Shown piece after piece: positions 3,376-58,628 of a stretch of DNA of 64,000 nucleotides. The stretch is taken from NCBI GenBank assembly GCA_963921825.1, contig OY997589.1, forward strand, positions 18,807,735 through 18,871,734, written 5' to 3'. Every line of letters begins with the position of its first letter. The stretch's first letter is position 1. The notes below the pieces were generated by a model. It saw only the letters and a program-made list of their open reading frames with translations, searched no databases and was not told the DNA's origin. A program made the position numbers and the translations under genes. This DNA comes from Erodium maritimum. Taxonomy: Eukaryota; Streptophyta; Magnoliopsida; Geraniales; Geraniaceae.

Positions 3376-3389
3376 TTTAAGTAAGTATT

Positions 3390-4225
3390 TTTGTAGAACA
3401 AAGAAACACTTTTATTACCACGAAAAGGAGTTATTACATGTTTGATCATGTACTAGGTCTAACAATAACTCAACAAAAATAGAACGTCTAAGACGGTCTT
3501 GATGAAAGTAGAAGACTGTAATGAAAAGGTGCTGCAAAACACTGCTCAAGGCGTGGCCGAATCGCAACTCATTCCCCTGAAGAGGACCCATATAGTCTGG
3601 TTGAAAACCGAACTTGTGTTGTGCAGTAGTGAAGGAAAGACTGGCTTTTCTCAGGGATCCCTTCCAGTAATCATCCCTGAAGCCCTTGGTTATCAAAATA
3701 AAAAGACCCTCTCGATTAACCAGATCCATATTCGAGAGAGGGGTCGAGGAGAGTGCGGTGGAGGAGGATGCGTCGGTGGCTGTTTCAGAGACGGTGGCAG
3801 CGACTTTAAAGTCGACGACGTCGAATTCAGAGGCGACTTTAGAGGCAGCGACGACGGATTCAGAGACGTCGGCAACTTTAGAGATTGCTTTGAGGTCGAT
3901 TGACATCGAGGTGAGCCAGACAACAACCATTGGACTTTTAGAGGGGGGACTGAACAAAGTCGGGAGACGCTTCGTTGGTGGTGGGAGGGAGCCAATACCG
4001 CGGTGGCTAGTGGCGACTCAAAAGGAGAAGCTCTAACGAAAAAATCTTCACATGACCCATAAAGAATGTACGAGAGAGATGATATAAGGAAGAGAAAAGT
4101 ATAACCATGCCATAGAGCATGACAAAGGTCATGGCCACAGCCATGACAAAAATCATGATCATAATCATGACTTTTCTCTTACGACGGTAAAGAGTTATAG
4201 GCTAGGGTTTTTTAATTTTGTAATT
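3390..4225 (-). mobile_element. Chimeric non-autonomous retroposon 1 (head H + LINE tail A)
   Basis: The unit is bracketed by an exact 14-base direct repeat, tttaagtaagtatt, at 3376-3389 and 4226-4239. This is a typical LINE-style target-site duplication. Reading on the minus strand, the head (about 4205-3695) matches the head of the unit at 54129-55097. It includes a CATGAC/GTCATGG-rich block (4105-4170) and a short frame with the motif MVVVWLTS. The tail (about 3690-3390) matches the 3' tail of the DUF4283 element at 53811-54087 and ends in a short A-run on the minus strand (T-run at 3388-3393). An open frame of 180 codons spans head and tail (3957-3415). No catalytic domain is present. It must have been mobilised in trans. 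Confidence 0.8.
3415..3957 (-). CDS. Unknown 180-aa frame in chimeric retroposon 1
   Basis: Not a family I recognise. The N-terminal part (MVVVWLTS, then Val/Ala/Ser-rich repeats such as KVADVSE and KVASEFD) corresponds to the frame at 54304-54594 in the sister unit. The C-terminal ~75 residues (from about KGSLRKAS onward) correspond to residues in the frame 53690-54040 of the DUF4283 element. The frame therefore crosses the head/tail junction. It may be a chance open frame in a non-coding retroposon. Its conservation across two copies is only partial. Confidence 0.3.
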   Translation of the reverse strand: MFSPPSKSPMVVVWLTSMSIDLKAISKVADVSESVVAASKVASEFDVVDFKVAATVSETATDASSSTALSSTPLSNMDLVNREGLFILITKGFRDDYWKGSLRKASLSFTTAQHKFGFQPDYMGPLQGNELRFGHALSSVLQHLFITVFYFHQDRLRRSIFVELLLDLVHDQTCNNSFSW

Positions 4226-4280
4226 TTTAAGTAAGTATTAATTATATCTCTACAATAATTGATTAATCTGTTTTTTCTTC

Positions 4281-6080
4281 TTTTTTTGAGCGAAATGTGC
4301 AGATTTCATTAATTAAATTTTGGAATGACAATAAAGTGCATCAGAGACTCTCTGACCACGAAGAACAGGGCAAGAACATTTAACAATGTTCGTTTTTCTT
4401 TTCCAAGTAGAACTGTCCACGACAGTGTTGAGTTGGCGCCCCATGAGCAAAGACAGAATATGGGTGGGGGGAACGGGATATCGGAGATCTAGAGGGACCT
4501 GGACGGTAATGTTGATGGTGGGAGGCAATGCATCGTCTTGGGACCCCTCCCAGGGCCAGTCCCCGATGCTATGTTGATGTCTCATCCCTCCCGGCGGGGC
4601 CTCTTCCCCACTCGTGGTGAGCTCTCCCATGTTGCGCTAGGCGCAGCCCTCCCCATAACTTCTGTAGCCTCCCCCGGTCGATCCCCGGGCGTTGGAACCT
4701 CAACATGGCGCGCCTCAACCAGGGCGCGTCCTCTACCTCCGAACCCCCCAGTCCAGGATAACCGAGCGGTAGCAATCGAATCAGCAGAGAGTTGACCCCG
4801 TCGCAACCCCCCGACCATCCCTTGTGCCAACGGGCCCGAGAGAGAGGTGGAGGACCACCTAGAGCGGCCTAGCTCGGCCTGCAAGATAGTATCCCGGTTG
4901 GAAATCCGGGGACCCATGTTACGTAACGGGTCCATTGTTATGTCGGCTTCCTCATAACGAGATGACCTAGCATTAGGTAACAGGTCCATTGTCAATGGTT
5001 GCAATCCCCCAGCTCCTAGATAACCACCGCGGTCGATACATGCTCCCCTCATAGCCGCCAGATGTGGACGATGTTGTCGAGGGCGGTGGCCACCAGTCGT
5101 AGCATACTACAGCAACCCTCTTTTGTACGTCGGTAAGGTCTGAACCCTAACAGGCTCCCCTCGGGAACGTGGGTCAGCATCCGGTATCCACTCCCTCTTT
5201 CGTTTTCACATCCACTATCGGGAGACCCTAGTTTAGGACGTCTCCACCATGTTCCACCACATCTCGGCCCGAACACAAGTCCACCCCCAAGTACGGGTTT
5301 TCATCGACGTGACCGAGACAGCCGTCGAGACCTCCGTAACGTCCCGGACCAGCCCCACCGGAAGTCGATGGGGCTGAGAGTGCAGCAATCCTGGCTGAGA
5401 CGAATCCCTAATCTGAGCAGGCGGTCCCCTATGCACTAGAGTAAGGTCTTGGCGTTAATGGGTCCCAATAGACGAGGTAGGGTTCGGGACACGGGGTGAG
5501 GGCATGTAGCGTGTAGCCGAAGCCACCGAGACCCGCCGCACCCAGGTGCACCTTTCCTAATACCAGCGACGAGAAAACGCCCTAGAGGAGTCGGGGGACA
5601 GTCCTCGTGGCCCGTAGAAGCCCAGCGATTCCCTCGCAGCCGAAGCCGGGGTCTCAGCACCCATCGAAGGAGAAGGCCAGGCCGAAATCAGGGAGAGTGA
5701 GGAGGGATGGGGGGGGGGGGTGGTAGAGTGGCTCGCATACCGGACTGCGGGATAGCATGCGAGATTGGTAAGAGAGGACGAGGGGAGATGGCGATCGTAG
5801 TATGAGTCGCCGGAGGCACAAGAGGAGCGGAGAGGGGGAGAGACGCAGAAGGTTGTGGAAACGCCACCCACTCCCACCCGTAGTTAAACCCCGAACCAGA
5901 CGTGGTCTACGAGGTCAACTAGATGGGGTACGTGAATACCGGGATGGCGAACCTGATAGGGCCAGACGGCGCGACAACAACAACAGTCTGGAGCTCCATA
6001 ACGACGACATACAGACTAGGACTAGGATTCTTCTCTAAAGGTCGAGAGGGCAATACCATAATCAAGTTGTTAATATTTCC
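4281..6080 (-). mobile_element. Probable LINE-type relic with tail type B
   Basis: On the minus strand the 3' end is clear: a tail at about 4630-4288 ends in GCACATTTCGCTC followed by an A-run (T-run 4281-4287 on +). The tail contains the motif DWPWEGS, also found in the retroposon at 54129-55097. The frame 5052-4582 (-) has the hydrophilic Gly/Arg-rich look of a LINE ORF1 C-terminus, but I see no DUF4283 or knuckle. The 5' end is uncertain. A low-complexity match (tgttttttcttc near 4270 and 6082) could be a TSD. A 12-base G run lies at 5709-5720. Confidence 0.45.
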
Positions 6081-6112: not shown

Positions 6113-6980
6113 TTTTTTTTGAAACGGGTAACCGGAGACTTTCATTAATACCAATTGGTAATCAAACAGGATGAGGCGTGACCGCCCCGGGTTCTAGATG
6201 TATGTCCGGGCCGACCGTAGCAAGTCCGATGCTCATGGGCCCATAATAATAGCCCACTTGAAATCGTGGGCACAAACTCAAGACAACTCCTTACCAACGT
6301 CTCAAAACAGCAAGACTTGAAATGAAAAGTCCTAATCAACATAAGCAACAGTGTTTAACCAACAATTTATTCGACCTAAAACATGATAAAAAATTAGCAC
6401 ACGATCGAAAGAGCAAACTACCAAATCTGCCCAGTTCTTCTAGGCCCCGTGCCATTGGAGCGATCTGGTATCGTCAATTCTTCGTCTTGATTCGCCCGGG
6501 TCTTTCGAAGGAGTGCAGGAGACGGGAGCAACGATTCGATCCGCAACGGTTTGTTCGGGATCGAGGGTCCCGACTTCGGGTGCCGTGGAGTCAGACCCCG
6601 GCCTATTGTCCTTCCTCCCGGATCCATCGAGGGAGCGGACCCATGCCGGCGAGAGGTGGCCCTGGGGCGGGAGGCCGCTGCAGATGGAGGACGACGCATG
6701 GAGCCCGTATCCCGGAGAACGGCGGCAGGAGGTCCACGGTGGCTATTGAAGGGTGCATCGAATCGCGAGCGGTGGGGAGGAAAGCCAGATCGGAATCGAG
6801 AAGAGGAGCAGGCTTGAGCAGTAGAGAACCGGTGGGGAAGATACTGAGGATGAGGAGGACGACGGCGTGGCTTGCGGGCGTGAGTGACGGCGGCGACAAT
6901 AGTAAACCCTAAGTAGGGTGGAATGGAACATCACCTGTAAGCAGTGGAGTGCTTGGAAGCAGAGACGACATAGGAGTGTT
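6113..6980 (-). mobile_element. Short non-autonomous retroposon with tail type C
   Basis: The unit is bracketed by an 18-base direct repeat with one mismatch, tttttt(a/g)taagtcttcct, at 6095-6112 and 6981-6998. On the minus strand a GC-rich head (about 6960-6400) is followed by a ~240-base tail (6345-6113) nearly identical to the LINE tail at 1330-1598 and ending in an A-run. Frames in the head (6899-6603 -, 6322-6912 +) are not a known protein. The unit is too short for a reverse transcriptase and was presumably moved by a LINE sharing the tail. It ends about 140 bases upstream of the NRAMP TATA box. Confidence 0.8.
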
Positions 6981-7222: not shown

Positions 7223-9520
7223 ATGCCACCGCAGGACTACGACCAGCCACTACTCGCCGGCTCCGGCTCCGACCCGTACCAGGAAACCGCGTACGACGCC
7301 TCCGACAAGGTGCACATAATCGGAATCGACGAATCCGATTCAGATAGCGTCGTTCCGCCCTTCTCGTGGAGGAAGCTCTGGCTCTTCACGGGACCTGGAT
7401 TCCTCATGAGCATCGCGTTCCTCGATCCCGGAAACTTGGAGGGGGACCTCCAGTCGGGGGCGATTGCAGGCTACTCGCTGCTGTGGCTGCTGCTGTGGGC
7501 CACGGCGATGGGGCTTCTGGTGCAGCTCCTCTCGGCGAGGCTCGGGGTGGCCACGGGGCGGCACCTGGCCGAGCTGTGCCGGGAAGAGTACCCGACCTGG
7601 GCTGGGATGGTGCTTTGGGCCATGGCGGAGCTGGCCCTGATCGGGGCCGATATTCAAGAGGTTATTGGGAGTGCGATTGCTCTCAAGATTCTGAGTAATG
7701 GCTTCTTGCCTCTCTGGGCTGGTGTCACCATCACTGCTCTTGATTGGTATAATTATAGTCTTAATTTCCTTTTTTATGCATTTTGGTTCAGTAATTTTTG
7801 CTACGGGTCCATTTTTAGTTTTGGTGTCACTTTTGGCTTAAAATTTCATCAAAATTAAGTAATATAGATCATTGTCCTATGTCTCCTTCAAGCAATTTTA
7901 TGTCATTTGATTGATTATATACTCAGTGTCTTAAAGGATAATCTGTATTTCCCGCTGCAAATAGTGTTAAGAAAGGAACATCTAGATCAAATTCTTAATT
8001 AGTGTTTGTGTTCTATTTGCATGGTGTTTCTCAGAAAAAACGAAGAACCCTCATCCACGTTATGTTAGAATTTTGTGTTGAATAATGCGATGTTTTGCTA
8101 TGTCCTAAGTTTCAAATCTAAGTTTTTATGTCTTTTGACTGCCTTGTCACAGTTTTGTTTTCCTGTTTCTTGAGAACTACGGGGTGCGAAAATTGGAAGC
8201 TGTTTTTGCTGTCCTAATTGCAACCATGGGACTTTCATTTGCATGGATGTTTGGTGAAACAAAGCCTAATGGCATGCAACTTCTTGTTGGTATGTCATTT
8301 TCCCTTCATTGAAACCATGTTCTATGTATTTTTTTTTAAATATATATAGCTTTGCATCTAATACATACTCTAATCCGCTTCCCTTGTAGGTATCTTGGTC
8401 CCGAAACTTAGCTCTAAAACAATAAAGCAGGCTGTGGGAGTTGTGGGTTGCATCATCATGCCTCACAATGTGTTCTTGCATTCTGCCCTTGTACAGTCAA
8501 GGGAAGTTGACCATAGAAAGAAAGGCAGAGTCCAAGAAGCCCTCAATTACTACTCCATAGAGTCTACTGTAGCACTTATCATCTCCTTCATCATCAACCT
8601 CTTTGTCACAACCGTATTTGCAAAGGGGTTTTACAATACAGAAATAGCCAATAGTATAGGCCTTGTAAATGCTGGTCAGTATCTTCAAGAGAAGTATGGA
8701 GGCGGATTCTTCCCCATTTTATACATATGGGGTATTGGGTTATTAGCTGCTGGGCAAAGTAGCACCATCACAGGCACTTATGCGGGGCAATTTATCATGG
8801 GAGGGTTTCTCAACTTGAGATTGAAAAAATGGCTGAGGGCTTTGATCACTCGAAGCTGTGCCATTGTTCCAACTTTGATTGTTGCTCTTGCTTTTGAGGC
8901 CTCTGAGGACTCACTAGATGTGTTGAATGAGTGGCTCAATGTGCTTCAGTCCGTTCAGATCCCGTTTGCGCTTATTCCCCTTCTTTGTTTGGTTTCCAGG
9001 GAGCAAATCATGGGAGTGTTTAAGATTGGCCCCGTTCTCAAGGTATGTTTTGACTTCTTCCTAAAGGAACCGTGGGTAATTTTTAGCCCTTAATGTAAGG
9101 GATAACCCTATTTACCAACAATATGTACTATACTGCCTATACAAACACTTGACAATACAAAGTTTTACGTTCGTTTCTGCAACAAAAAGTGAGCTGCAGT
9201 CAATGGTTGCAAAGGCCGTGATATAATATAGAGTTGGTAAATGGAGTTATTCCTTATAATAATTTCTGAATTTGCTTACCTTTGTTTGTTGCAATTTTGA
9301 TTTATAGGTGGTGGCTTGGCTGGTAGCTGGGTTGGTGATAGTGATCAATGGGTATCTTTTGGTGGACTTTTTCTCCTCTGAAGTGAAAGGTGCCTTGTTT
9401 GCTACTGTGGTGTGTGGCCTCACTGCTGCATACATAGCATTCATAGCTTACCTTGTTTTTCGCGGCATTTCCTTTAGAAATTTGTTAACGACAAAGAAAT
9501 CAGGTGATATGGTCAACTGA
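7223..9520 (+). CDS. NRAMP3: NRAMP divalent-metal transporter, vacuolar NRAMP3/4 type
   Basis: Four exons, 7223-7746, 8153-8289, 8390-9042 and 9308-9520, join in frame over GT..AG introns to give 508 residues, the usual length for the Arabidopsis NRAMP3/4 group. Metal-binding motifs are intact: DPGN at residues 68-71 in TM1 and MPH at 244-246 in TM6. The consensus transport segment around [13 protein letters not shown] is also present. The N-terminal tail carries a di-leucine (DQPLL) of the kind that directs NRAMP3/4 to the tonoplast. Members export Fe2+ and Mn2+ from the vacuole, for example during seed germination, using the proton gradient. The start is the first Met of the long frame and follows a TATA box by 77 bases. 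The frame running on past 7746 (to 7858) is intron read-through. Vacuolar location is inferred from subgroup and di-leucine, not proven. Confidence 0.95.
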
Positions 9521-14646: not shown

Positions 14647-16725
14647 CTATATAACCAATATTACAGTAAACTAAGTTGCTTAACCTGAATACTACTGAAA
14701 ATTTGTCTCTCTATTTTAGACTTTCTGCATCGCCTGCGCCTGTCCTTCTGCAACCATGACGGTTTTGCTGTCACTCTCGTCTACTGTTGAGGGGTCACCA
14801 TCCCTAGGTGTTCCTCTTCTCTCTCCTCTTGTTATGCCCCTGCCTCTCCCTAAGGGTTTTGTCAAGCCTATCTGGGAAAAGAAGAAGAGGACACCTCGTC
14901 AAAACCCTCCTTTACCACCGTCCTCTTCTATTCCGGAAGTTGTATCGCCGCTCTTCCCCCCTCCCCCGCCTCAAGGATAAATCACTGGTGGTGTTCGAGC
15001 CTGGAGCCACGATGTAGCCTCCGGGAAACCCTAGGCCGAAGCGAGGAAGACCAACCAAGGCACAACCTCCCTCGGGTCTGTTCTTGGCGATCCCGAAGCT
15101 ACATTTCCCAAAGTTTCTCCTCCCGGGAGTGGCGGCGAGTAGGGTTGAGCCCTCAGTATCCAAACTTCTGACTGGAGCGGCAGAATCCTTCCTTACGCGG
15201 GCCTCGTCTCCTCCGGCTCCGGGCGCCACAAGGACTGATCTGAGACAGGTCCTGGCTTCCAACCCATCCGCTATGCATGAAGGGTTCTCAACCCCTCCTA
15301 CTCACCCCTCCATTATAGGGGATCTTCAGGAGAGGTTCTTGGCGTGTTGCTTTACAGAGGAGGAGACAGTCGTGGTGGTGGTGCCCTGTAACCCAGCGGA
15401 TCCACAAACCCTAGCTCGCCTTCAGTTTGGCTTGGTAGGTCGTCTAGCCGTTCCGAATCTACCGCGGAAGGAACTCATGTTGGTGATCATCACTTGGGCT
15501 TGGGGTCGTGTTGCGACGGGGGTGGTCGTCAAGGATCTTGAACCGGACACTCTGGTTTTTTACTTTCGGTCATCGGCGGATAGGACTTGGGTCCGCCAGA
15601 ATGAACCATGGTGCTTCCATGGCCATCTGTTGCTTCTCGGGGAGATCTTGAATCCCATGTCTAGGGACCTCCCTCGGTTGGACAAGTACCAGCTCTGGGT
15701 CTTTGCACGGGGTATCCCACATCTTGTTCGTACAAAGGCCACCGGGGAGGCAATCGGAGCAGCCTTAGGAGAACATGTAGATACCTCATGTGATCAGTGG
15801 GGTATATGCTGGGGCGGAACTGTGAAGGTCCGGTTCTAGATGGACGTGAAGAGACCTCTCTGGCGTACAATGATTATGAGCTTCCGAGACTACCCGTAGT
15901 CGGTCCGTGTCAACCTCATGTATGCTAAGCTCCCTACTTTCTATTTCAATTGTGCCATAATTGGCCACTAGTTAGGGATTGAGAGTGGGAGGTCCTAGGA
16001 GTTCCTCGTTATGGGGTCTCCCTTCTAGAATTCAAGACCGCCAAAGCGGATCGGCCCTATGAGACCGATTGGGGAAAAGATCTGCATCCACTTCCACCAC
16101 CACCGGGATTTGCCTCGCTGACCCTAGATCCAATACCAAAAACTGGATTGGCCCGAGAGAAGATAGCTCGTACGACCGTGGACCCGATACCTAATCGGGA
16201 TTTACTAGCTCAATTTCGACTGGGAAAGGAGCCGTCCACATAGGACGTCGTCCAATCATCTACGACAAGTCGTCCTAGGTGTTCGCAGTAGGGGTCGAGT
16301 GGCTAAAAGAGGGACACAGCGGGGGAGCCGCTAGAAGATCGGGCGAGGGCTAGAAAACAACCTCGCCAGGAGAAATGAGAAGAATTCATGGCTCTAGTGA
16401 CTGACTCCGGGAGGGGTCCCTGAGGAGAGTTGTTCAAGTTTGGTGGTTCAATCGGTCGTTGGGTCGACGAGACGAGTCCTTGGAAAGCAGGGATCAAGCA
16501 GCGTTTAGGCCCCACCTTGAGCTGTTTCGGGCAATGGGCACCTTTGAATTGATTTTATTTCCTATTTTAGTTACTTTCCTTGCACTGTGATGATTGACAT
16601 AACTGAGTCTTTTTTGTATCAGTTCGTCTTTAAAACTTATTGGACCATGTCCCTTTTGAGGGTCATGACCACTTTAATGAGTTTTGGTTTATATTAATAA
16701 AAGCTACAACTTATTTTCAAAAAAT
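14647..16725 (+). mobile_element. ORF1-only LINE-type element with DUF4283 ORF; tail type E
   Basis: A direct repeat of 14 bases with one mismatch, aagtaga(t)(t/g)gtcta, lies at 14633-14646 and 16726-16739. The unit has a short 5' leader, an ORF1 (from 14756 or 15084), degraded ORF1 C-terminal sequence and a 3' tail that ends TTATTTTCAAAAAA at 16725. It totals 2.08 kb, with no space for, and no trace of, endonuclease or reverse transcriptase. Because both ends and the TSD appear present, ORF2 was absent or deleted before insertion. Confidence 0.65.
15084..15960 (+). pseudogene. DUF4283 ORF1 with decayed zinc knuckle
   Basis: The frame 15084-15839 (251 codons) carries a full DUF4283 domain at about residues 85-250. 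It has the GLVGRL start, an AWGRVATGVVVKDL block, the NEPWCFHGHLLLL core near 15600 and the WVFARGIPHLVRTK block, with RF at its end. A stop at 15837-15839 is followed by in-frame remnants of the usual next segment (DVKRPLWRTM near 15845 and YAKLPTFYFNCAIIGH near 15925). There the first Cys of the CX2C knuckle is lost. Typical DUF4283 proteins continue through the knuckle, so this copy is inactivated by point changes. Confidence 0.8.
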
Positions 16726-19519: not shown

Positions 19520-19913
19520 ATGGGCGGAGCTGGGAGAGCTCAGAGCAAGAACAACGGGTCGCTCCCGCTCCCCGCTCCGCGCGTGCCGGGAACGCCGGCC
19601 GCTGGCCGATCCGCTGCAGACGCGAAAAATCGCGGTCCCGCTCCCCATTTTCGCGCTCCCGCTCCCCAATCTCCCGCTCCCCTCTGACTGGCCGAGCGCG
19701 CTGGACGCGCCCTCGCGCCCTGGCCTGCGCTGGCAGGCTCCGGTGCCGCCACGTGTCCCGATAGTTGGCAACGATCAACTCCAACGGCTATTTTTTTTTA
19801 ATTCAAAAATCAGATAAAATGAACCCTATAAATACCCAACCTCATTCCTCATTTTTGTCAAACCATTCTCTACTTACTCTTTCATTCTCACTTCCTACTC
19901 GCTATTTTTGAAA

Positions 19914-21092
19914 ATGTCCGACGACGAGGTTATGTCCGACGCTGAGGAGATTACGTACGAGGAGCTGGCTTCCCGGATGCAGACGTATGAGGAGATGGCA
20001 GCCCAACTGCTGACATATGAGGAGATTAGGGCCCAAATGCAGCCAGTTGAGCGACGATTCCGGCGGATGATGGAGAGGCACATGCAGACAGTAATGCCAA
20101 AGGTCCAGAGGGCCATCCGTGGGGAACCAATGCGCCGAGAGATTAACAGAGGTCGTTCGGCAGCCCACATCCAATTGATGGCGAACTATTTTGACGAACA
20201 ACCCCTATACGGCCCTGACATGTTCAGGCGTCGGTTCCGTATGTGCAAACCGCTTTTCCAACGGATTATGAACGCGGTGAAGGCTCACGACGACTACTTC
20301 GAACAGAGGCCCGACGCTGCCTCACGGTCGGGGTTATCAACGGAACAGAAGTGCACCGCCGCTATACAGATGCTTGCGTATGGGTCCACGGCCGATTCAC
20401 TGGACGAAACTCTGCGCATGGGGGTAAGCACCATACTTGAATGTTTACGTAAGTTTTGCAAGGCCGTCATTGAGGTCTTCGGAGCCGAGTATGAGCGTAC
20501 ACCCGCACCGACTGACATGGACCGCTTACTCCGAGAAGGGTACAGCCGAGGGTTTCCCGGAATGGCGGGGAGTCTTGACTGTATGCATTGGAAGTGGAAG
20601 AACTGCCCAACCGAAGAGCAGGGAGCCCATGGACGGGGAGGTCACCACGGGGAAAAGACGATTATGCTTGAAGCTGTAGCGTCCCGTGATTTATGGATTT
20701 GGCATGCATTTTTCGGGATGGCTGGATCGAACAACGACATCAACGTCCTCAACCACAGCCACTTATTCCAAGACGCTTACTACGGCCGTGAGCTTGCTGT
20801 TGAGTACTACATCAACGACCATCGGTACGACCGACCTTATTGTTTGGTGGACGGCATTTACCCAGCATGGGCACGGTTCGTGAAGACTATTCGGCATCCC
20901 TTCGAGCCCAAAGAGAAGTTGTTTGCTAGATGCCAAGAAGGTGCTCGGAAAGATATTGAAAGGGCTTTTGAAGTACTTCAGGGAGCTGTGCCCACCCCCT
21001 CTTTTTTTCTCTTTAATTTCTCAATTTTGTGTCGGTATAGTTTTTTAGTATTAAAAATTAGGATTGTAATGAGTCTTAACAAACTGGTTTGA
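19914..21092 (+). pseudogene. PIF/Harbinger transposase, DDE triad intact, C-terminus lost
   Basis: The frame from 19914 encodes a HARBI1-like nuclease of the PIF/Harbinger superfamily, which cuts and pastes elements with a 3-base TSD. Catalytic residues are D222 in GSLDCMHW, D275 in GSNNDINVLN and E349 in KDIERAFEVLQ. The FRMCKPLFQRI and STILECLRKFC blocks typical of plant members are present. The N-terminus has a three-fold TYEE repeat (TYEELASRM, TYEEMAAQL, TYEEIRAQM). After FEVLQ (near 20980) the expected C-terminal segment (about 60 residues ending in HNMI in relatives) is replaced by unrelated residues from AT-rich DNA. A very GC-rich leader (19524-19760) precedes it. No partner ORF is adjacent. 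The activity of a protein truncated here is doubtful. Confidence 0.85.
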
Positions 21093-27815: not shown

Positions 27816-29614
27816 TTTTTTTGATAAGCTAAAATTTTTATTAAGCAAATGTTCTATAAAGGAATAGAACAAAGCAGGAAAAGATCCAAACAGACTTTTC
27901 CTCCAACCAATACAGCTACAAAGAGCAGACACGGACCTAGAAAAAACAAGATGTAAACAAAACACCTTGCCTATTTCCTATTCGGGTTCAAACAAGTAAA
28001 CCGGTTAGATACCGGAACAGGGGTTAGGACTTGATCGGAAGTCGGTTCTAGTCCCTCGGAATCCTGATCGAGAGCTAAGGAACAGAGATCAACAGCTTTT
28101 CTACCAACCTTCGAGCTGTAACTCCAGTTACCCGTGCTATCTTTTTTGGCTACAGTCACCAGAAAGCGTCCCGAGTTATCCCCTTTATCAGCAGAAGTCC
28201 TGGCTCTATTCTGATACACGACCACTAGTTGTGCACTCACCCTCGCTTGGCCCTTCTTAGGGCGACCATGGCGTTTTGGTTCAGCCCCCGAGATTGGTTT
28301 TTGCAAGGCTTCTTTCCACGGGCTTCCTTGAAAACCAATCTCCATAGTCGGTTCAACGCCCCGACCCGGATTAACTTGACCCGAACCCAACACAGAAGGG
28401 TCCAAGTCATTCTCTAAACGCTTAAAAATAGTACCCAATTTTGGATCCTCTTTCCCGGACCGATGGGCCTTATCTGCAGACCCAGCTAAAACAGGCCCAG
28501 GACACATCAGACTTGGCCCAACCTGCTCAGAATCAGCCTGGGTTGGAACAAGCCCGACCTGCCCAGCCACTAAGCCCAAATTCCGAGGCCCAACTGAGTG
28601 CCCTGGAAACACGGATGCCATTCAACTCTCACAAAGACGAAAACGCTTCCTCGGATGGCGGCGCGATCATCTCGTCCACGAAGTGCGGCGTGATCAGAGC
28701 AGAAACAGAAGGGTTATCAGACCCTTGATTCAAAAACGAAACAGGATCGGATGAGATCCCTGGAAACACGGATGCCAATCCTGGAACGTTACGCTCGCCG
28801 GAGTCCTGCGCTTTTGTCGTCGGGACTGTCACCGGAGAAGGTGTGACCAATGGAGGCTGAACTACACCTCCAGCACACTCCATCCCGTCATCCTCCGTTT
28901 GAACCCGATCACCGGAGTTGCAACCCAGATCGTTTCGCAGAACAGAGCGTATGCTCTGTTTCTCGATCCCAACTGGTTCAATCGCCAGGGAGGTCGAACG
29001 CCGCCGAGAAAACGCCACAAACAGGACGTGGCCGTTTACCTGTGCTCCATTTAAAGTCTTCAACGCCTGGGACGTGACCATTGACGTCGTGAATCGAACA
29101 AAGCCGAAAAAATACCCTGCCCTGTTTGCTCTCTTCAGCAAAGAAAGGGATGCTATGTCGCCAAACTTGGTGAACTGACCTCGAAACCACTCTTCCGACG
29201 CCGGATAAGGTAAGTTCCGGACATATAATTCAGTGTCGCTCACCTCGTATTGAACCGAAGATCGTTGTCGGCGAACCGTGTCCGTGCGCACTCCGACCGT
29301 CTCCACTTCCTTTGATCCAACGTTCAAAGGCGTGGTAGTTGATCCAGCAACAACCTCGCCTGAATCAGAGCTTTGCCTTCCCAACCTCGTCGCAGCTCCT
29401 GTACCTCGCTTTCCCCGGCTACGACCCTGCGTCTCTGTCCCTCCTCCATGGACCGGGCCGGCTTTAGATCTCTTCTTTACCGGTGCAACAAAGGAATAGA
29501 ACTCTTTGTACAAGGACAGTAAGTTGGAGCAAAACGTTACGAACTCTTCAAGTCTACCGGGAAAGGACCTCCGGCCAAGTTGAGAGAGTTTTGCCTTCAT
29601 GCTTCTGTTACCTC
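27816..29614 (-). mobile_element. ORF1-only LINE-type element with RRM ORF; tail type F
   Basis: A direct repeat, aggatacat(c/t)agat, lies at 27798-27811 and 29615-29628 (13 of 14). The minus-strand unit begins just upstream of the ATG at 29600, runs through an RRM-containing ORF1 and ends with a tail AGCTTATCAAAAAAA at 27816. The tail motif (AGCAAATGTTCTAT, AATAGAAC) matches the reverse-transcriptase-bearing LINE fragment at 10615-14100, so both belong to one LINE family. ORF2 is entirely missing, although the 5' end is retained. Confidence 0.75.
27971..29600 (-). pseudogene. LINE ORF1-type RNA-binding protein (RRM), frameshifted
   Basis: The frame 29600-28629 (323 aa) has one RRM at residues ~124-198: RNP2 is LYVRNL (125-130) and RNP1 is the YFFGFVRF block (163-170). 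Basic and Ser-rich flanks precede it. RRM-type ORF1 proteins are known from plant and other L1-clade LINEs and bind the element RNA. After a stop at 28629 a second frame (28621-27971, 216 aa) continues the same Gly/Pro/Lys-rich protein in another frame. The phrase ASVFPG occurs in both, and a 20-base repeat marks a local duplication at the break. Together they would be ~540 residues. No zinc knuckle is evident. Confidence 0.75.
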
Positions 29615-40500: not shown

Positions 40501-43500
40501 AATTCTTTTGATAACATTTTCATCATTTGCATGATGCAGGTTCTACAAACTGAGTTGTTGATATCAAAGGCTAGAGAAGCAGGTCTGAATATTTTCCAAC
40601 TGTTAAAATCCTCACATCAACATCTTCCTCTTGAATTGAGTTCAACGTCTATTGAGGTATTAGATTACAAGTTGTCATAAATTTTGCATTTCATTGTGTT
40701 ACTAGCTCCTCTTGTTGATTACCAATCACTTATATTTGGTTTGGTAAGATATCTGAGCTGGTAAAGTTGGAAACTTTTTTGCAGTTTTGGAATATGGAGT
40801 ACTAAAGGCTAGCCTTTCCATGTACCCTTAGTTGGAAGATGTATATGTTTAAGTATAATCCCACGTCTAATAAGAATAACAAAAATGAGTTATATGGAAA
40901 AGCAAGGTCACACTCAACTAAAAAGGTTGACTTCTAGTTGTGGAGCCCAACCCGATATATGTAGCCCAATTGAAAATTTACCTAGTATCAGAGTCTGGTT
41001 GTGTGGCCTTTGGTTGACCATGGCCCACGAGTAGAAGTCCAACCATACATGTCTTGCCCATTTGTCGTAGATGACTTGCCTATTACGATTTGCATGTGGA
41101 AGTCCAGCCCTCCACATGGATTTGGGGAGTGCTGAAGTATAATTTCATATCTAATATAATAAGAAAAATGAGCTATATTGTAAGGGCTAATCCAACCAAA
41201 AAGTTTGACCTTATAGCTATGGAGCTCAACCTGAATATGTAGCCCGATTAAAAATTTACCGTGTACTTACTATCATGTGAAATATAACATGTAGTGTTAT
41301 TGACTGCAGCAATCTATGCAGAAAATTAAGCATATGGGATATGAGCAACTGTCTACTGTCATTAAAGATGCTATGAGGGATCAGATGGAGGGTGTTGGAA
41401 CAAGCTCTGAGATCCTGGCAAAAATTGCTGATAGCCTAAGTTTGAGGTCAAACCAGGAGGTTCTAATAGAGGCCGTGGCTCTTGAGAAACTAAAGGAGAG
41501 TGCTGAACAAGCTGAAAAGTCGGAGGAAGCGGAGTATCTTGATCAAATGATTGCTCTTGTAACCCATATGCATGAACGCCTTGTCATGATAAAGCAGTCC
41601 CAGGGGTGTAGCCCGGTGCCAATTCCTACTGACTTCTGCTGTCCTCTTTCTCTAGAGCTGATGACTGATCCTGTGATTGTAGCATCAGGGCAAACCTATG
41701 AGCGGGCATTCATCAGGGAATGGATAGACCTTGGTCTCACTGTCTGTCCTAAGACTCGCCAGACTCTGGCTCACACTAACTTGATACCAAATTACACTGT
41801 AAAGGCATTAATTGCAAATTGGTGTGAATCAAACAATGTGAGGCTGCACGATCCTATGAAGCCCATGAGCTTTGATCACCCGTCATCCCTTCTTTCCCAT
41901 GCAGAGTCTGGTGCTCCAAGAGATTCACATATGCTTTCTCATACAAGGAACAACCCACCAATGTGTCCTGAGTCAAATAGGTCTGCCAGTTCACCTGCTA
42001 GGAATCTAATCCCATCCAGTGGAATTCACCGAGAGGGAAGTTCTCCCCTACATATGCATTCCACCTCTGATAGTTCCTTATCTGGCACATCTGGAAATGG
42101 ACCGGCTTTGGATATTGGGAGAGTGTCACTGACAAGTTCTGAGGACAAGTCTACTCACTTGGATGAAAGAAACAGAGATGGTCAGTCTTCTATGTCGCCA
42201 ACTAGGAAGGAATTTTCAAGGGCTATTAGGGAGGATGAACAGTTGTCTCAGGGCCATAGTAGAACTGCATCAGCTTCTAGCACTATTTCTAATTCAAATC
42301 CCCAGGGAGTTCCTGGTGATGCCAATGAGGTTTCTCAGACGTCAACCCATTCTACTGGCAACCGAAGCGAAACTTCTGGGGAAGTAAAAGTAGATATGCA
42401 GCCTGCTGCTAGCATGAACACCTCACAGAGAGAATCCGATTTCTCGTCCCGACTGGAGACCAGACCTCGAAATCAGAGTATGTGGCGCCGTCCATCAGAG
42501 AGGTTTGTTCCGAGGATAGTTCCTTCTAAAGAAACAAGACCCGATCTTTCTGGCATTGAAACTCAAGTCAAGAAGCTAGTTGAGGACTTGCATAACACTT
42601 CAGTTGAGACTCAAAGAGCCTCAACAGGAGAACTTAGGCTTCTTGCTAAGCACAACATGGACAACCGGATTGTAATTGCTAATTGTGGAGCGATTACCTT
42701 ATTGGTTGATTTGCTATGCTCAACAGATGCAAAAATCCAGGAAAATGCTGTTACTGCACTCCTTAACTTATCGATCAATGATAACAACAAAACTTTGATA
42801 GCCGGTGCTTCTGCAATTGAACCTCTGATTCATGTCCTTGAAACAGGGAGTCCCGAGGCGAAAGAGAATTCAGCTGCCACTCTCTTTAGCCTCTCTGTGA
42901 TTGAGGATAACAAGGTGAGGATTGGAAGGTCTGGAGCAATTAGGCCGCTGGTTGATTTGCTGGGGCATGGAACTCCTAGGGGGAAGAAAGATGCAGCCAC
43001 AGCTTTGTTTAACTTGTCAATTTTTCATGAAAACAAGGCCAGGATTGTGCAAGCCGGTGCAGTAAAGTATCTTGTGGAACTGATGGACCCAGCAGCTGGG
43101 ATGGTTGATAAGGCAGTTGCAGTTTTGGCCAATCTTGCTACAATTCCCGAGGGAAGAACTGCAATTGGCCAGGAAGGTGGTATCCCTGTCCTGGTTGAGG
43201 TTGTTGAGTTGGGTTCTGCCAGAGGGAAGGAGAATGCAGCAGCAGCCCTTCTACAGCTTTGCACAACCAGTAGCAGATATTGCAATATGGTGCTCCAAGA
43301 AGGAGCTGTCCCTCCATTAGTGGCATTGTCTCAGTCCGGAACTCCTAGGGCCAAAGAGAAGGTACGCATATGAGTGTCTTGTTTTGATTGTAGGTTAAAA
43401 GTGGGGATCAAGGGGAGTTAGTGTTCCACTTTTCCACCATGTGTTCCCATTCGTAATACTATGATGAGGTATTATAACCGAAGCTTGTTTGTCCAGCTGG

Positions 43501-52574: not shown

Positions 52575-52689
52575 CCAAGCAAAGGGTCACATCCGCATCT
52601 GGCGCGAAGCCCTACTCCAACCAACTAACCTAAGACGAATGGTACTCACGCAGGGAGACACTGTCTAGACCCCCCCCCCCCCCCCCAAT

Positions 52690-54087
52690 CAAGGTATAAG
52701 GTCTTCAGTGTTTCTGGGTTAGTGACACCGACTATCCCTGACCCCCCCCCCCCCCCCCCGTTGGCCTTAGGGCCAACGCTACCCGAATCTCCTATCTGGG
52801 CCCTTCATGAGAGTCTTTCGGGTTGCTCCTTGGATTATGAGGAGGCTCTAGAGGTGATCATCACTGATGCGACTGTCGACTCGAGGGATTTGGCTCGTCA
52901 ACAATTTGGTATGCTCAAACGACTTCTAGCGCCGCGTCCCCCCGAAAGGAGACCCTATTACGGATCATCACCAATGCATGGGGTAACTCGGCGGTGGGGC
53001 TCGTGATCAAGGACATCAAGCCCGGTGTCTTTGGGTTCTACTTCGCCAATAAGGACGTTCAGGTATGGGTTTGTCGACACGAACCATGGTGCTTTGATGG
53101 TCACCCCCTGCTTCTTGGGTACATTGACCCGTCCGCTAGAGCTTTCCTATCCTTAGACTGGCTCCAATTGTGGGTTCACGCCCATGGACTCCCGCCTTGT
53201 GTTTGAACTAATACAATTAGGGAGAAGATTGGAGCTATTCTGGGGACCACGGTGGAGGTCCCGTGTGATGACTACGGTCAATGCTGGGGTGGGGAAGTCA
53301 AAGTGCGCTATTGACACTATTTAGACCGCCATCTTTGTCGGAATCTGCTGCTTCGATTGCTGGAATTCCAGGACCCGATTACCTGCTCTCACCTACACAA
53401 AGTTACCTACTTTTTTGGGGAATTGTGGGTGGATTGGCCATACTCCATCGGCGTGTGACATAGAGAGGCCAGGGATTCACAAGTTTGACAAGTCTGTGCT
53501 GGAGTATCAGAAGGAGAGGTAGAGCAAGCTCTATGCAACTGATTGGACGAAGCCTATCCGAAATCCGTCGGGTTTTGACCCTCTGACCCATAACACTGCA
53601 CCTAAGCCTACCCCACCTAGAGGTAAGGGGCCTATTATAACCCACAGCATGACACCTAACGAGTGTGTATGTGGGGGTGATCTTCCGGGTTGGAAAAACT
53701 TGATGGGGTAGGGGCACCCTCGATGAAGATGCCCGGAACAAAGAGGTATTTCGCTGGGGAACCCCATGAAGACCAGGCGAGGGCTGGGAAGCAACTTCGC
53801 CGGGATTGTTGGAAGGGATCCCTGATACAAGCTAGTCCTTCCTTCACTACTGATGAACACAGGTTCGGTTTTCACCCAGACGATATGGGTCCTCTTCAGG
53901 GGACTGAGCGGCGCTTCAGCCACACCTTGAGCAGTGTTCTTCAGTACCTTTCATTTACAGTTTTCAATTTTATTCAAGACCATCGTAGATGTTCTGTTGT
54001 TGAGTTATTGTTCGGCCCGTCTATAAGATCAAATATATAATAGCTTTTTTCGTAGTTATGAAAGTTGCTCCTCTTATCTTTTAAAAA
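52690..54087 (+). mobile_element. LINE-type relic with DUF4283 ORF1; tail type A
   Basis: On the plus strand a C-run-flanked leader (18 C at 52742-52759) is followed by a broken DUF4283 ORF1 (52722-53320), degraded ORF1 C-terminal sequence and a tail at about 53811-54087 ending in five A. The same tail is on the minus strand at 3390-3690. ORF1 passes to the tail within ~0.5 kb, leaving no room for ORF2. The 5' end and TSD were not resolved. Confidence 0.6.
52722..53320 (+). pseudogene. DUF4283 ORF1, two frames
   Basis: Frame 52722-53006 gives the acidic linker and domain start (DYEEALEVIITDATVDSRDL, then QQFGMLKRLLAPR). Frame 52994-53206 continues VIKDIKPGVFGFYFANKD, the HEPWCFDGHPLLLGYI core and LQLWVHAHGLPPCV. 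After a TGA at 53204-53206, homology goes on (REKIGAILGTTVEVPCDD, WGGEVKVRY). No knuckle is readable after it. Confidence 0.7.
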
Positions 54088-54128
54088 CACAATAATAGGT
54101 TGAAGGATGTATTATCAGAGAATTTAAT

Positions 54129-55097
54129 AGGGTTTTGAGACTCTGCTGTCGCACGCACCACCATAGTTATGGCTATGGCAATTGCCATAGCTTATGTCAT
54201 TATTCTTCTTCTCTATCCACCATCTCCTCTACACATCCCATGTGGGTCTTGCGCGAGTTTTTTCTGCTAAGGTTACTCTCGGGCCGTCGCTAGCCACCGC
54301 GCTATGGACTCTCCCCCACCACCATCGACGCGTCTACCGATCATGTTCGGTTCCCCTTTTGCAATCCTGATGGTTGTCTTCTGGCTCACCTCGGCGTCAA
54401 CCAACCTTGAAGCCGCCGATGCCTCTGTAGTCGCAGCCGCCGCCCCTGAAGCACCCCTAAATCCGCCGCCCCGGGGGTTTTCGTCTCTACAGCCGTCGTC
54501 TCTACATCCACCGTCCCTGATGCTGTTGCTGCCATACTTGAAGTTGTCGCCATCCCTGCTGTCATCGCCGCTTCTGATGTCGCCGCATCTTTAGAGTCGC
54601 CCCTGAAGTCGTCGCCGCCGGATCTACAACCGCAGCTGGCGCGTCCTTCTCCCTGGCCTCCACCGCCGCAACCGCCTCGACCTTTTTTACGATTATGGAT
54701 CTGGCTAATCGAAAGAGTCTTTTTTATTTATTTTTTATTTGAGTTTGTCTTTGCAGGATCAATGCATGTCGAACAGAGAATCGAGGATTTCTGTAAGGGA
54801 AGGGAGCATCAAGGACTGGCCCTGGGAGGGGTCCTTAGATGTTTTGTCTCCCACCATCACCATTGTTGAGCTCTCTGAGTTCCGGTACCCCGTCCCCCCC
54901 CCCCCCCCCCCCCCCCCCTCGTCTTCTGTCCTTGCCCGTGGGACATCAAAATACCGTTTGTGACGGTTTTGATATGAAAAAGCTTTGTGAACCATTGTTC
55001 ATTCATACTGATTATCTGTAATCGAGGAACATGTTCTTCGATACACAACAATATAATCGATTCTAAAAGTTATTATATTGAACATTTCGTCCAAAAA
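54129..55097 (+). mobile_element. Chimeric non-autonomous retroposon 2 (head H + LINE tail B)
   Basis: An exact 15-base TSD, atcagagaatttaat, lies at 54114-54128 and 55098-55112. The head (54129-~54735) starts AGGGTTTTGAGACTCTG. It matches the head of the unit at 3390-4225 through GCTAGCCACCGCG, the MVVFWLTS frame and ATGGATCTGGCTAATCGAAA. From ~54740 the tail switches to the DWPWEGS type, which ends AACATTTCGTCC plus an A-run and matches the tail at 4288-4630. A run of 25 C lies at 54894-54918. No catalytic domain is present. Confidence 0.82.
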
Positions 55098-55112
55098 ATC
55101 AGAGAATTTAAT

Positions 55113-56813: not shown

Positions 56814-58628
56814 ATGGAGTGTCAATTGCACCGACCCCAAACATCAAAACATTACAACACAGCTGTCAATTCGCCGGAAAGACCACCGTGCACCGACCCA
56901 ACTTGCTTCTTCTGCGCCATGAACGAGCCGAACCCATCTCTCCGGCGACCCAGAATCGCCAAATGCTTCAAAGAGATGCCTCACAAGACCAAGCAGGAGC
57001 ACGTCCTGGTGCTCAGCGGGCTCTGGAACATGGCCATGGCCCAGCCGGACGACCCGGACTTCCCGTCCCTCGGCGTCTTGGAATGCATGTCCAAGCTCAT
57101 CCACAGAGGCCTAACCGACCCGCAGTGGCTTCTCCGAGACCAGAACATTTACATACCATACTATGCAGCTCATGTCATCGGTTCCTACGCCATGAACAAG
57201 CCCCAGTTCGCCGAGAAAGCTGTGAAAGGTGGAGTTTTGACGCCATTAATGGAGCTTCTGAGAGGAAAGATCAGTTGGGTCGAGCAGAGAGTGGCTGTTC
57301 GAGCACTGGGTCATTTAGCCAGCCATGACAGAACAATAGAAGCCTTTACCGTCCACAAGACAGAGATCACAGAATTGGCCATGAAGATAGCTTCAAGCTG
57401 TTTGTTTGAAGTTTATGACAAGTTCTTGAGCGTCAAAGAGGTGAAGAGGCTCAAGTACCAATGCGATCTCTTGACTCGAGGGCTCGGAGGATTCGAAATT
57501 GAGAACATAAAAGCAGAGGAATGGGCTAGTCAGATCCAATGCTGGTCTCTGTATCTACTGAACTGCTTCGCAACCAGAGAGAGGTCTCTGAAACTGATCT
57601 GCACCACAGAGTTCTTGACGAGTCTGTGTAGAATGTGGGGAGGTTTGGCAAACCGGACATCCCCTGCTGGGATCGGGCTGTTGAGAACACTCTGTTTCAC
57701 AAAATTCGGAAGAAAACATGTCTCTTATTCGAAACAAGTCGTTGAGTTTCTCTGCAATGTCTCGAGATCTTCCGATGATTGGCAGTTCATGGGAATCGAA
57801 TGTCTTGTTCAGTTACTAAAAGACCCAGAAACGAGATACGAAGTCCTCGACGTAGCTGCTCCTTATCTTGCCGATTTAGTGGAGCTCGAAAACAGAGCAA
57901 GGGTTGGAGAAGCCATTACTCAGGCTCTGTTACAAGATTACCACAAGTTCAGATATGAAAACTTGAGATTGAAGAGCAAAAGAGCCGAGAAAGCATTGGA
58001 GGAGACGTGGGATTTGAAGGTGGAGAGGAAAAAGAGAGAGACATTGATGGCAGAGCAAGAACTGAACCAGAGAAGACGATCTGTGGGCGTGCTGAAGAAG
58101 ATGGGGAATCAGAAATTTTGGTGGGGAGATATTGAAAAGGCTGTGGATAAGTACAGTGAAGCTCTGGGTTTGTGTCCGTTGAGTCTGAGGAAGGAGAGGA
58201 TAGTTCTTCATAGTAACAGAGCACAGTGTTACTTGCAGCTCGGAGACCCAGAAGCCGCCATCAGTGACTCGACTCGAGCTCTGTGCTTGTCATCGAGTAC
58301 GGGTGGCCTCCACGGTAAGAGCCTGTGGAGGAGATCGCAGGCGTATGATATGAAAGGGTTGGCCAAGGAGAGCTTGATGGACTGCTTGATGTTCCTCAAT
58401 GGCCGCGTGAGGTCTGACCGGGGGATCCCCTACTACGCGGCGAGTTTGATAAGAAAGCAGATGAACGCCACGTGGATATTTGGTGATGCCAAGTCGAAGA
58501 AAGCTAGCAGAAATGGGAAGAAAGGAGATGAATTGCACGGTGATGATCACATCTTGAAGAAGATGATGATGGAAATAAAGGGCAAGAAGAAGATGAAGAT
58601 GAGTAACACTTCCACCATGTTTAGTTGA
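56814..58628 (+). CDS. ARM/TPR-repeat protein, intronless
   Basis: A single 604-codon frame. The N-terminus has a Cys cluster (CTDPTCFFC, residues 26-34). Residues ~55-400 are helical repeats of ARM type (VLSGLWNMAMAQ, GGVLTPLMELLRG, VEQRVAVRALGHLASHD, QFMGIECLVQLLKD). A charged coiled coil (LRLKSKRAEKALEETWDLK) follows, then three TPR-like repeats at about 425-540 (GNQKFWWGDIEKAVDKYSEAL, HSNRAQCYLQLGDPEAAISDS). The C-terminus is very basic (KKMMMEIKGKKKMKM). The arrangement fits the plant ARM-repeat/TPR-like family, whose members are probable adaptor or co-chaperone-like proteins. I know no precise function. The start is the first Met of the frame and the N-terminal Cys motif supports it. 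No frameshift or stop is present, so it looks functional. Confidence 0.88.
   Translation: MECQLHRPQTSKHYNTAVNSPERPPCTDPTCFFCAMNEPNPSLRRPRIAKCFKEMPHKTKQEHVLVLSGLWNMAMAQPDDPDFPSLGVLECMSKLIHRGLTDPQWLLRDQNIYIPYYAAHVIGSYAMNKPQFAEKAVKGGVLTPLMELLRGKISWVEQRVAVRALGHLASHDRTIEAFTVHKTEITELAMKIASSCLFEVYDKFLSVKEVKRLKYQCDLLTRGLGGFEIENIKAEEWASQIQCWSLYLLNCFATRERSLKLICTTEFLTSLCRMWGGLANRTSPAGIGLLRTLCFTKFGRKHVSYSKQVVEFLCNVSRSSDDWQFMGIECLVQLLKDPETRYEVLDVAAPYLADLVELENRARVGEAITQALLQDYHKFRYENLRLKSKRAEKALEETWDLKVERKKRETLMAEQELNQRRRSVGVLKKMGNQKFWWGDIEKAVDKYSEALGLCPLSLRKERIVLHSNRAQCYLQLGDPEAAISDSTRALCLSSSTGGLHGKSLWRRSQAYDMKGLAKESLMDCLMFLNGRVRSDRGIPYYAASLIRKQMNATWIFGDAKSKKASRNGKKGDELHGDDHILKKMMMEIKGKKKMKMSNTSTMFS

Follow-up and report, generated by a model that had tools for sequence, protein, structure and literature searches.

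One retroposon head and several 3' parts in Erodium maritimum: two units of a 64-kb window and their relatives across the genome

Two short units in a stretch of Erodium maritimum DNA begin alike and end differently, which raises the question of how one 5' head came to stand before unlike 3' tails. The stretch, hereafter the window, is 64,000 nucleotides long (C2:18807735–18871734, in an assembly of 763 Mb and 40 contigs). The initial annotation, made from the sequence of the window, proposed a non-autonomous family that gains mobility by acquiring different 3' ends of long interspersed nuclear elements (LINEs); both its observation and its interpretation hold in part. We consider it probable that the two units, A and B, belong to a single retroposon family, here called H, which is old, high-copy, non-coding and non-autonomous, and whose 3' part is modular and has been exchanged a few times. 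Copies of H are dispersed through the genome, carry target-site duplications (TSDs) and 3' A-runs, have fixed joints between head and tail, and share their tails with bodies that are otherwise unlike H.

Both units proved to be complete insertions, bounded by exact TSDs of 14 and 15 bp (TTTAAGTAAGTATT and ATCAGAGAATTTAAT; Table 1). Alignment of A 1–535 with B 1–610 gave a local score of 288.5 (200 shuffles reached at most 74.0), confirming the common head. The two tails are not alignable directly, their score of 30.5 lying near the shuffle mean of 31.6 (maximum 50.5). Each tail matches an element near the other unit, as had been noted: the A tail aligns with the end of element F1 over 266 columns, and the B tail with 4462–4570 in element F2 at 75% identity over 109 columns. 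Unit A starts 41 bp past the end of F2 (spacer 4240–4280) and unit B about 16 bp past the end of F1 (spacer 54098–54113), each on the same strand as its neighbour; among the 60 head loci described below, these are the only two in which the 150 bp upstream of the head contain a match to F1 or F2. Runs of C or G occur at 54894–54918 (25 bases, inside unit B), at 52670–52686 and 52742–52759 (inside or near F1) and at 2437–2456.

Table 1. Positions in the window of units A and B, their parts, and the two elements that share their tails
Feature	Position	Strand	Basis or remark
Unit A, type HA1	3390..4225	-	Complete head + A middle + A end, 836 bp; exact TSD
TSD of unit A, exact, 14 bp	3376..3389 and 4226..4239		TTTAAGTAAGTATT
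Head H of unit A (about A 1–531)	3695..4225	-	Homology with the B head and with 30 loci
Tail of unit A (A middle + A end)	3390..3694	-	80% identity to 53804–54065
Unit B, type HB	54129..55097	+	Complete head + B middle + B end, 969 bp; exact TSD
TSD of unit B, exact, 15 bp	54114..54128 and 55098..55112		ATCAGAGAATTTAAT
Head H of unit B, including an extension absent in A (about 54730–54795)	54129..54795	+	Extension common to C and D copies
Tail of unit B (B middle + B end)	54796..55097	+	B 677–776 matches 4570–4462; copy alignment
F1, ORF1-like element with the tail of unit A	52716..54097	+	DUF4283 at 52868–53203, E 1.4e-8; 5' end not fixed
F2, element with B-like middle + C/D-like end	4281..6051	-	1.74–1.77 kb common to L097 and L098

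Genome-wide, the B head returned 2781 first-look candidates and the A head 2054. For each query 40 candidates were scored and 30 fetched, giving 60 head loci. Four kinds of middle follow the head in these best matches: B in 29 loci, A in 15, C in 8 and D in 4, with none of the four in the remaining 4 (L019, L046, L051 and L055). The B middle is present in 29 of the 30 loci fetched by the B head, and the B end was detected in 25 of those 29. The A middle stands with the A end in 7 loci, unit A among them and in the same head-tail order, with a C/D-like end in another 7, and without an end in L037; a C/D-like end also follows in 4 of the 8 C loci and in all 4 D loci. Three types of 3' end are paired with four middles. 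Dozens of loci on other chromosomes have the same head-tail joints, and neither unit is a one-off. A single fixed tail, or a nested insertion with an internal TSD at the joint, had been named as findings that would speak against the proposal; neither applies, because identical head-tail joints turned up at many places.

The TSD scan covered the 47 loci with a located 3' end and used 460 swapped-flank pairs as controls. Direct repeats scoring at least 13 flank 15 of the 47 units, against 0.2% of controls; at thresholds of 11 and 10 the counts are 19 and 24, against 1.5% and 5% of controls. The 15 units above the strictest threshold comprise 13 of the 25 with a B end and 2 of the 7 with an A end, and each has a short A-rich run just before the repeat. 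Family H therefore has the marks of a LINE-mobilised retroposon without long terminal repeats, namely TSDs at both ends together with a 3' A-run or LINE-like end. These results bear out the claim of a dispersed, TSD-bracketed, non-autonomous family in which a single head is joined to several 3' parts.

The same tails also occur on other bodies. The F1 tail query gave 553 candidates, and 14 loci were fetched. Tail A is present in all 14, which were found by that tail, the longer F1 body in 13, and DUF4283 in 12 (tblastn); RNase H probes gave no match in the 14, most of whose stretches extend only 1.2 kb upstream. One F1-type copy, L087 (1100–1300), has lost its open reading frame 1 (ORF1) body by deletion at a short repeated AATGA. 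No TSD candidate was found for F1 in the window. The F2 tail query gave 2877 candidates, and a B-like middle is present in all three fetched loci, in which DUF4283 and RNase H probes found no match; five open reading frames (ORFs) from the F2 copies L097 and L098 had no Pfam match, and a single T-rich 11-bp repeat is the only TSD candidate for F2. The D tail query gave 2411 candidates, from which 8 loci were picked. L106, L108 and L110 are DUF4283 bodies with a D middle and a C/D-like end, L111 joins H to D, L109, L112 and L113 hold parts of H, and L107 has neither H nor a DUF4283 body.

The initial annotation took the tails of F1 and F2 for LINE tails. With the probes used, ORF2 was detected in none of the 17 F1- or F2-type donor loci. 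The plant LINE domain zf-RVT returned 12902 candidates as a query, and the unit middles were absent from the 3' regions of all 20 LINEs compared, whose interiors were not searched. Four of the 20 regions match just 40–60 bp at the end of one unit, and likeness to LINE ends is confined to the last 30–45 bp. The absence of ORF2 from the donor loci and of unit middles from these regions leaves a role of F1 and F2 as reverse transcriptase-bearing LINE donors unsupported. With the LINE end of L062 as probe, 11 of 15 element ends outscore every internal window.

H itself resembles neither an autonomous LINE nor a short interspersed nuclear element (SINE). No ORF2 with reverse transcriptase and RNase H was found in the 0.7–1.0 kb units, and no RNase H probe matched inside a unit in the orientation of the head. 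A Rfam search of unit B for a tRNA, 5S or 7SL head gave one match (E 0.24), far under its gathering score, and a known structured RNA in unit B was rejected on this ground. A protein-coding head was likewise rejected: third-position differences show no excess in the heads of A or of C and D copies, and the long ORF at 3418–4017 was negative in Pfam.

The two joints do not fall at the same place in the head, contrary to what had been annotated. The head of B, C and D copies continues beyond the A break, through TTTGTCTTTGCAGGATCAATG and some tens of bases more. Because the A break lies near B 601 and the match of B to F2 begins near B 667–677, the A joint precedes the B joint by about 65–75 bp. 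Within each type the joints are fixed, and A copies exist in two forms, with the T-rich stretch before AACCAAGG kept or absent. Listing what follows the head in the fetched loci yielded the expected recurrent tails and TSDs, but no single switch point.

The description of the tails as unrelated also stands only in part. Tails A and B cannot be aligned directly; in the copies, L034 (A) against L026 (B) scored 28.6, with a shuffle maximum of 28.0. L034 against L057 (C) scored 55.6, compared with 28.2 in shuffles, and L026 against L049 (D) scored 56.0, compared with 30.5. Since the A–C and B–D alignments exceed their shuffles, the tails are connected through intermediates.

We then read the history of the joined forms from a head tree of 60 rows, in which all 29 B-middle loci were labelled as having the B end (detected in 25), while the end was left unlabelled for 8 loci and the middle for 4. 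All B heads form one clade (100/100), as do A heads with the A end (99/92) and A heads with a C/D-like end (98/87); the C copy L041 adjoins the last of these. Type C is scattered, with 7 changes, a number as low as that in 166 of 500 shuffles. On this tree the middle changed at least six times and the end at least twice, indicating that swaps were rare and old and were followed by copying. Tail types hardly stray outside the head clade to which they belong (all labels together need 10 changes, against 28.1 in shuffles), so the tree gives no sign of the free interchange that had been proposed. Each joined form arose on one or a few occasions, with copying afterwards. The tails of H-A1 copies and of F1 copies form two separate clades (100/100) in an unrooted tree, from which the donor side is not readable.

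A course of events consistent with these data can be outlined. The head, roughly 0.45–0.6 kb long and conserved across subfamilies, probably carries the transcription start. The 3' part is modular, with at least four middles and three ends; all finish in a short A-run, which in most follows a motif of about 30 nt that resembles the 3' end of autonomous LINEs. Copies were inserted by LINE-type target-primed reverse transcription, as the TSDs and 3' A-runs show, with a presumed LINE enzyme recognising the last nucleotides of the H RNA. On a few past occasions the 3' part would have been replaced by one that is also found on unrelated 5' bodies: tails A and D on ORF1-like DUF4283 elements, and tail B on the F2 body. 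The joined form would then have been copied as a new subfamily. The joining itself probably occurred when a LINE reverse transcriptase switched template from the 3' part of one RNA to the H RNA, or, less probably, by fusion at the DNA level followed by read-through.

Several observations weigh against this account. As best matches to just two heads, the 60 loci are not a random sample, and the proportions of middle types are biased accordingly. None of the 15 loci with a C/D-like end reaches a TSD score of 13; these copies may be older. Other LINE-end probes performed more weakly than L062 (L077 8/15, L061 5/15, L079 9/15), and unit A passes the LINE-end test with none of the four. Heads of B copies show a modest third-position excess (0.141, 0.125, 0.175). 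When H was compared by sensitive alignment with the 5' parts of other bodies, 3 of 12 scores lay slightly above the best of 30 shuffles. Because middles A and C are distantly related, divergence and not exchange may account for part of the contrast between tails. The joints, inspected by eye, bear no mark that proves a template switch.

The closest competitor, which we regard as unlikely, holds that H is the 5' untranslated region of ORF1-bearing or full LINE families and that the units arose from several related families by internal deletion, the head being inherited and not acquired. In its favour, each of the tails A, B and D is found on H as well as on a longer body that is partly ORF1-like, the loss of the ORF1 body in L087 demonstrates that such deletion does occur, and the 5' parts of L087 and L108 give weak H-like scores. 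Against it, blastn found no H in the three F2-type loci, upstream of the D-type body L108 in the extended L114+L108 stretch, or in eight LINE 5' regions, in two of which (L096 and L102) a DUF4283 ORF1 was recognisable. Nor is any of the 60 heads directly followed by a DUF4283 ORF (tblastn, four ORF1 probes). Still less probable is descent from a single ancestral head-plus-tail element that kept its head and whose tails, without any exchange, diverged past recognition. The A–C, B–D and B–L057 tail similarities above shuffles speak for such descent, and the end changes just twice on the head tree; pure divergence is at odds with the presence of the same tail, at about 80% identity, on 5' bodies unlike H, and with the pairing of the A middle with two different ends.

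Joining by the splicing of a longer transcript is known from human SpIREs and some SVAs, and we consider it very improbable here. The head extension of B, C and D copies does hold a sequence resembling a 3' splice site, TTTGTCTTTGCAG/G (by eye), but it remains inside those units. F1-type copies read GAGTCC/AACCAAGG just before the shared A tail and, by eye, offer no AG acceptor there, for which reason splicing at the A joint was rejected. That the window holds nested insertions or an assembly artefact is suggested by the placement of each unit just downstream of the element with the other tail; we give this virtually no weight, as the same joints are found on other chromosomes, in dozens of loci, and the TSDs lie at the outer ends. 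Nesting was rejected for the B and A1 types because of these recurrent joints. Modular exchange of the 3' part remains the reading we prefer.

By analogy, H appears to work like MINE or the SVA and LAVA elements, and seems structurally near Sadhu. MINE, the WEIRD-MGL chimeras of Magnaporthe grisea, are described as having a non-coding 5' part of about 1.1 kb, a LINE 3' part and TSDs of 10–20 bp, with template switching proposed and a SINE-tailed variant also reported (PMC2104539). H shares the non-coding 5' part, the TSDs and the alternative 3' parts. It differs from MINE as described there in that its joint is fixed within a subfamily, its 3' part is a short module also present on other non-autonomous bodies, and its candidate copies number thousands. 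A truncated 3' part of a reverse transcriptase-bearing LINE, with a joint varying from copy to copy, was not seen in H: the joints are fixed, and none of the 20 LINE 3' regions compared holds a unit middle. The SVA, LAVA, PVA and FVA elements of apes are reported to combine a common 5' part with different 3' domains and to be moved, as non-autonomous elements, by LINE-1 in trans (PMC4432496, PMC7353768, PMC6139936). The likeness to SVA and LAVA concerns layout, H likewise having a common 5' part with alternative 3' domains; according to the same reports these elements are hominoid-specific and have Alu and variable-number tandem repeat parts.

Sadhu of Arabidopsis is reported as about 900 bp long and non-coding, without a tRNA or 5S head, with TSDs of 7–16 bp, LINE-type target sites, template-switched derivatives and 39 copies (PMC2848041). 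On that description H is similar, being a non-coding plant element with units of 836 and 969 bp and TSDs of 14 and 15 bp. The Sadhu 5' motif CAATCGTTSC is absent from all 60 H loci within 200 bp of the head start, so H is not the same family; in addition, the cited account of Sadhu, as far as it goes, makes no mention of a set of alternative tails that also sit on other bodies (PMC2848041). The statement of the initial annotation that it knew of no such plant family stands in that H is not Sadhu, but it passed over Sadhu as a non-coding plant retroposon of similar size with template-switched 3' ends, as that source presents it. The SINEs HaSE1, HaSE2 and HaSE3 of Helicoverpa are described as sharing a 5' part while differing in the 3' region, and as having a 3' part that recurs on different heads, with template switching proposed (PMC3272025). 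They differ from H in being shorter and having, in that description, tRNA or 5S heads. Salicaceae SINE families with exchanged 3' ends, which are tRNA-derived, provide a plant example of 3' ends diverging or being exchanged in LINE-dependent elements. Family H is not named in the literature searched; it may be described elsewhere or under other words.

With low confidence, we suggest that these elements might form a network of parasites in which ORF1-only elements (which might supply ORF1 protein), F2 bodies and H draw on a common pool of 3' modules. H subfamilies would then reach new LINE partners by taking 3' modules, and the tail would serve as an exchangeable docking part for LINE reverse transcriptase. 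If the modular exchange preferred above is real, plants would offer a case, with candidate copies in the thousands, for counting and dating on a tree the exchange of 3' parts between LINE-dependent elements. It would make testable how non-autonomous retroposons switch LINE partners, a question studied so far mostly in apes, fungi and SINEs.

Other features of the window were recorded alongside. An inverted pair at 6115–6343 and 1370–1598 (89% identity) may belong to F2 or form the 3' end of a further element, because the same sequence also lies near the F2-type copy in L098 (1316–1531). More DUF4283 ORF1-like stretches lie at 1–1182, with a CCHC zinc knuckle, and at 15084–15839. The ORF at 28629–29600 has an RRM_1 domain and is perhaps the ORF1 of another LINE type, and that at 19908–21092 encodes a DNA-transposon protein with Plant_tran (PF04827). 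Host genes in the window encode an Nramp protein (7223–7858), a U-box/ARM protein (41316–43373) and a TPR protein (56814–58628).
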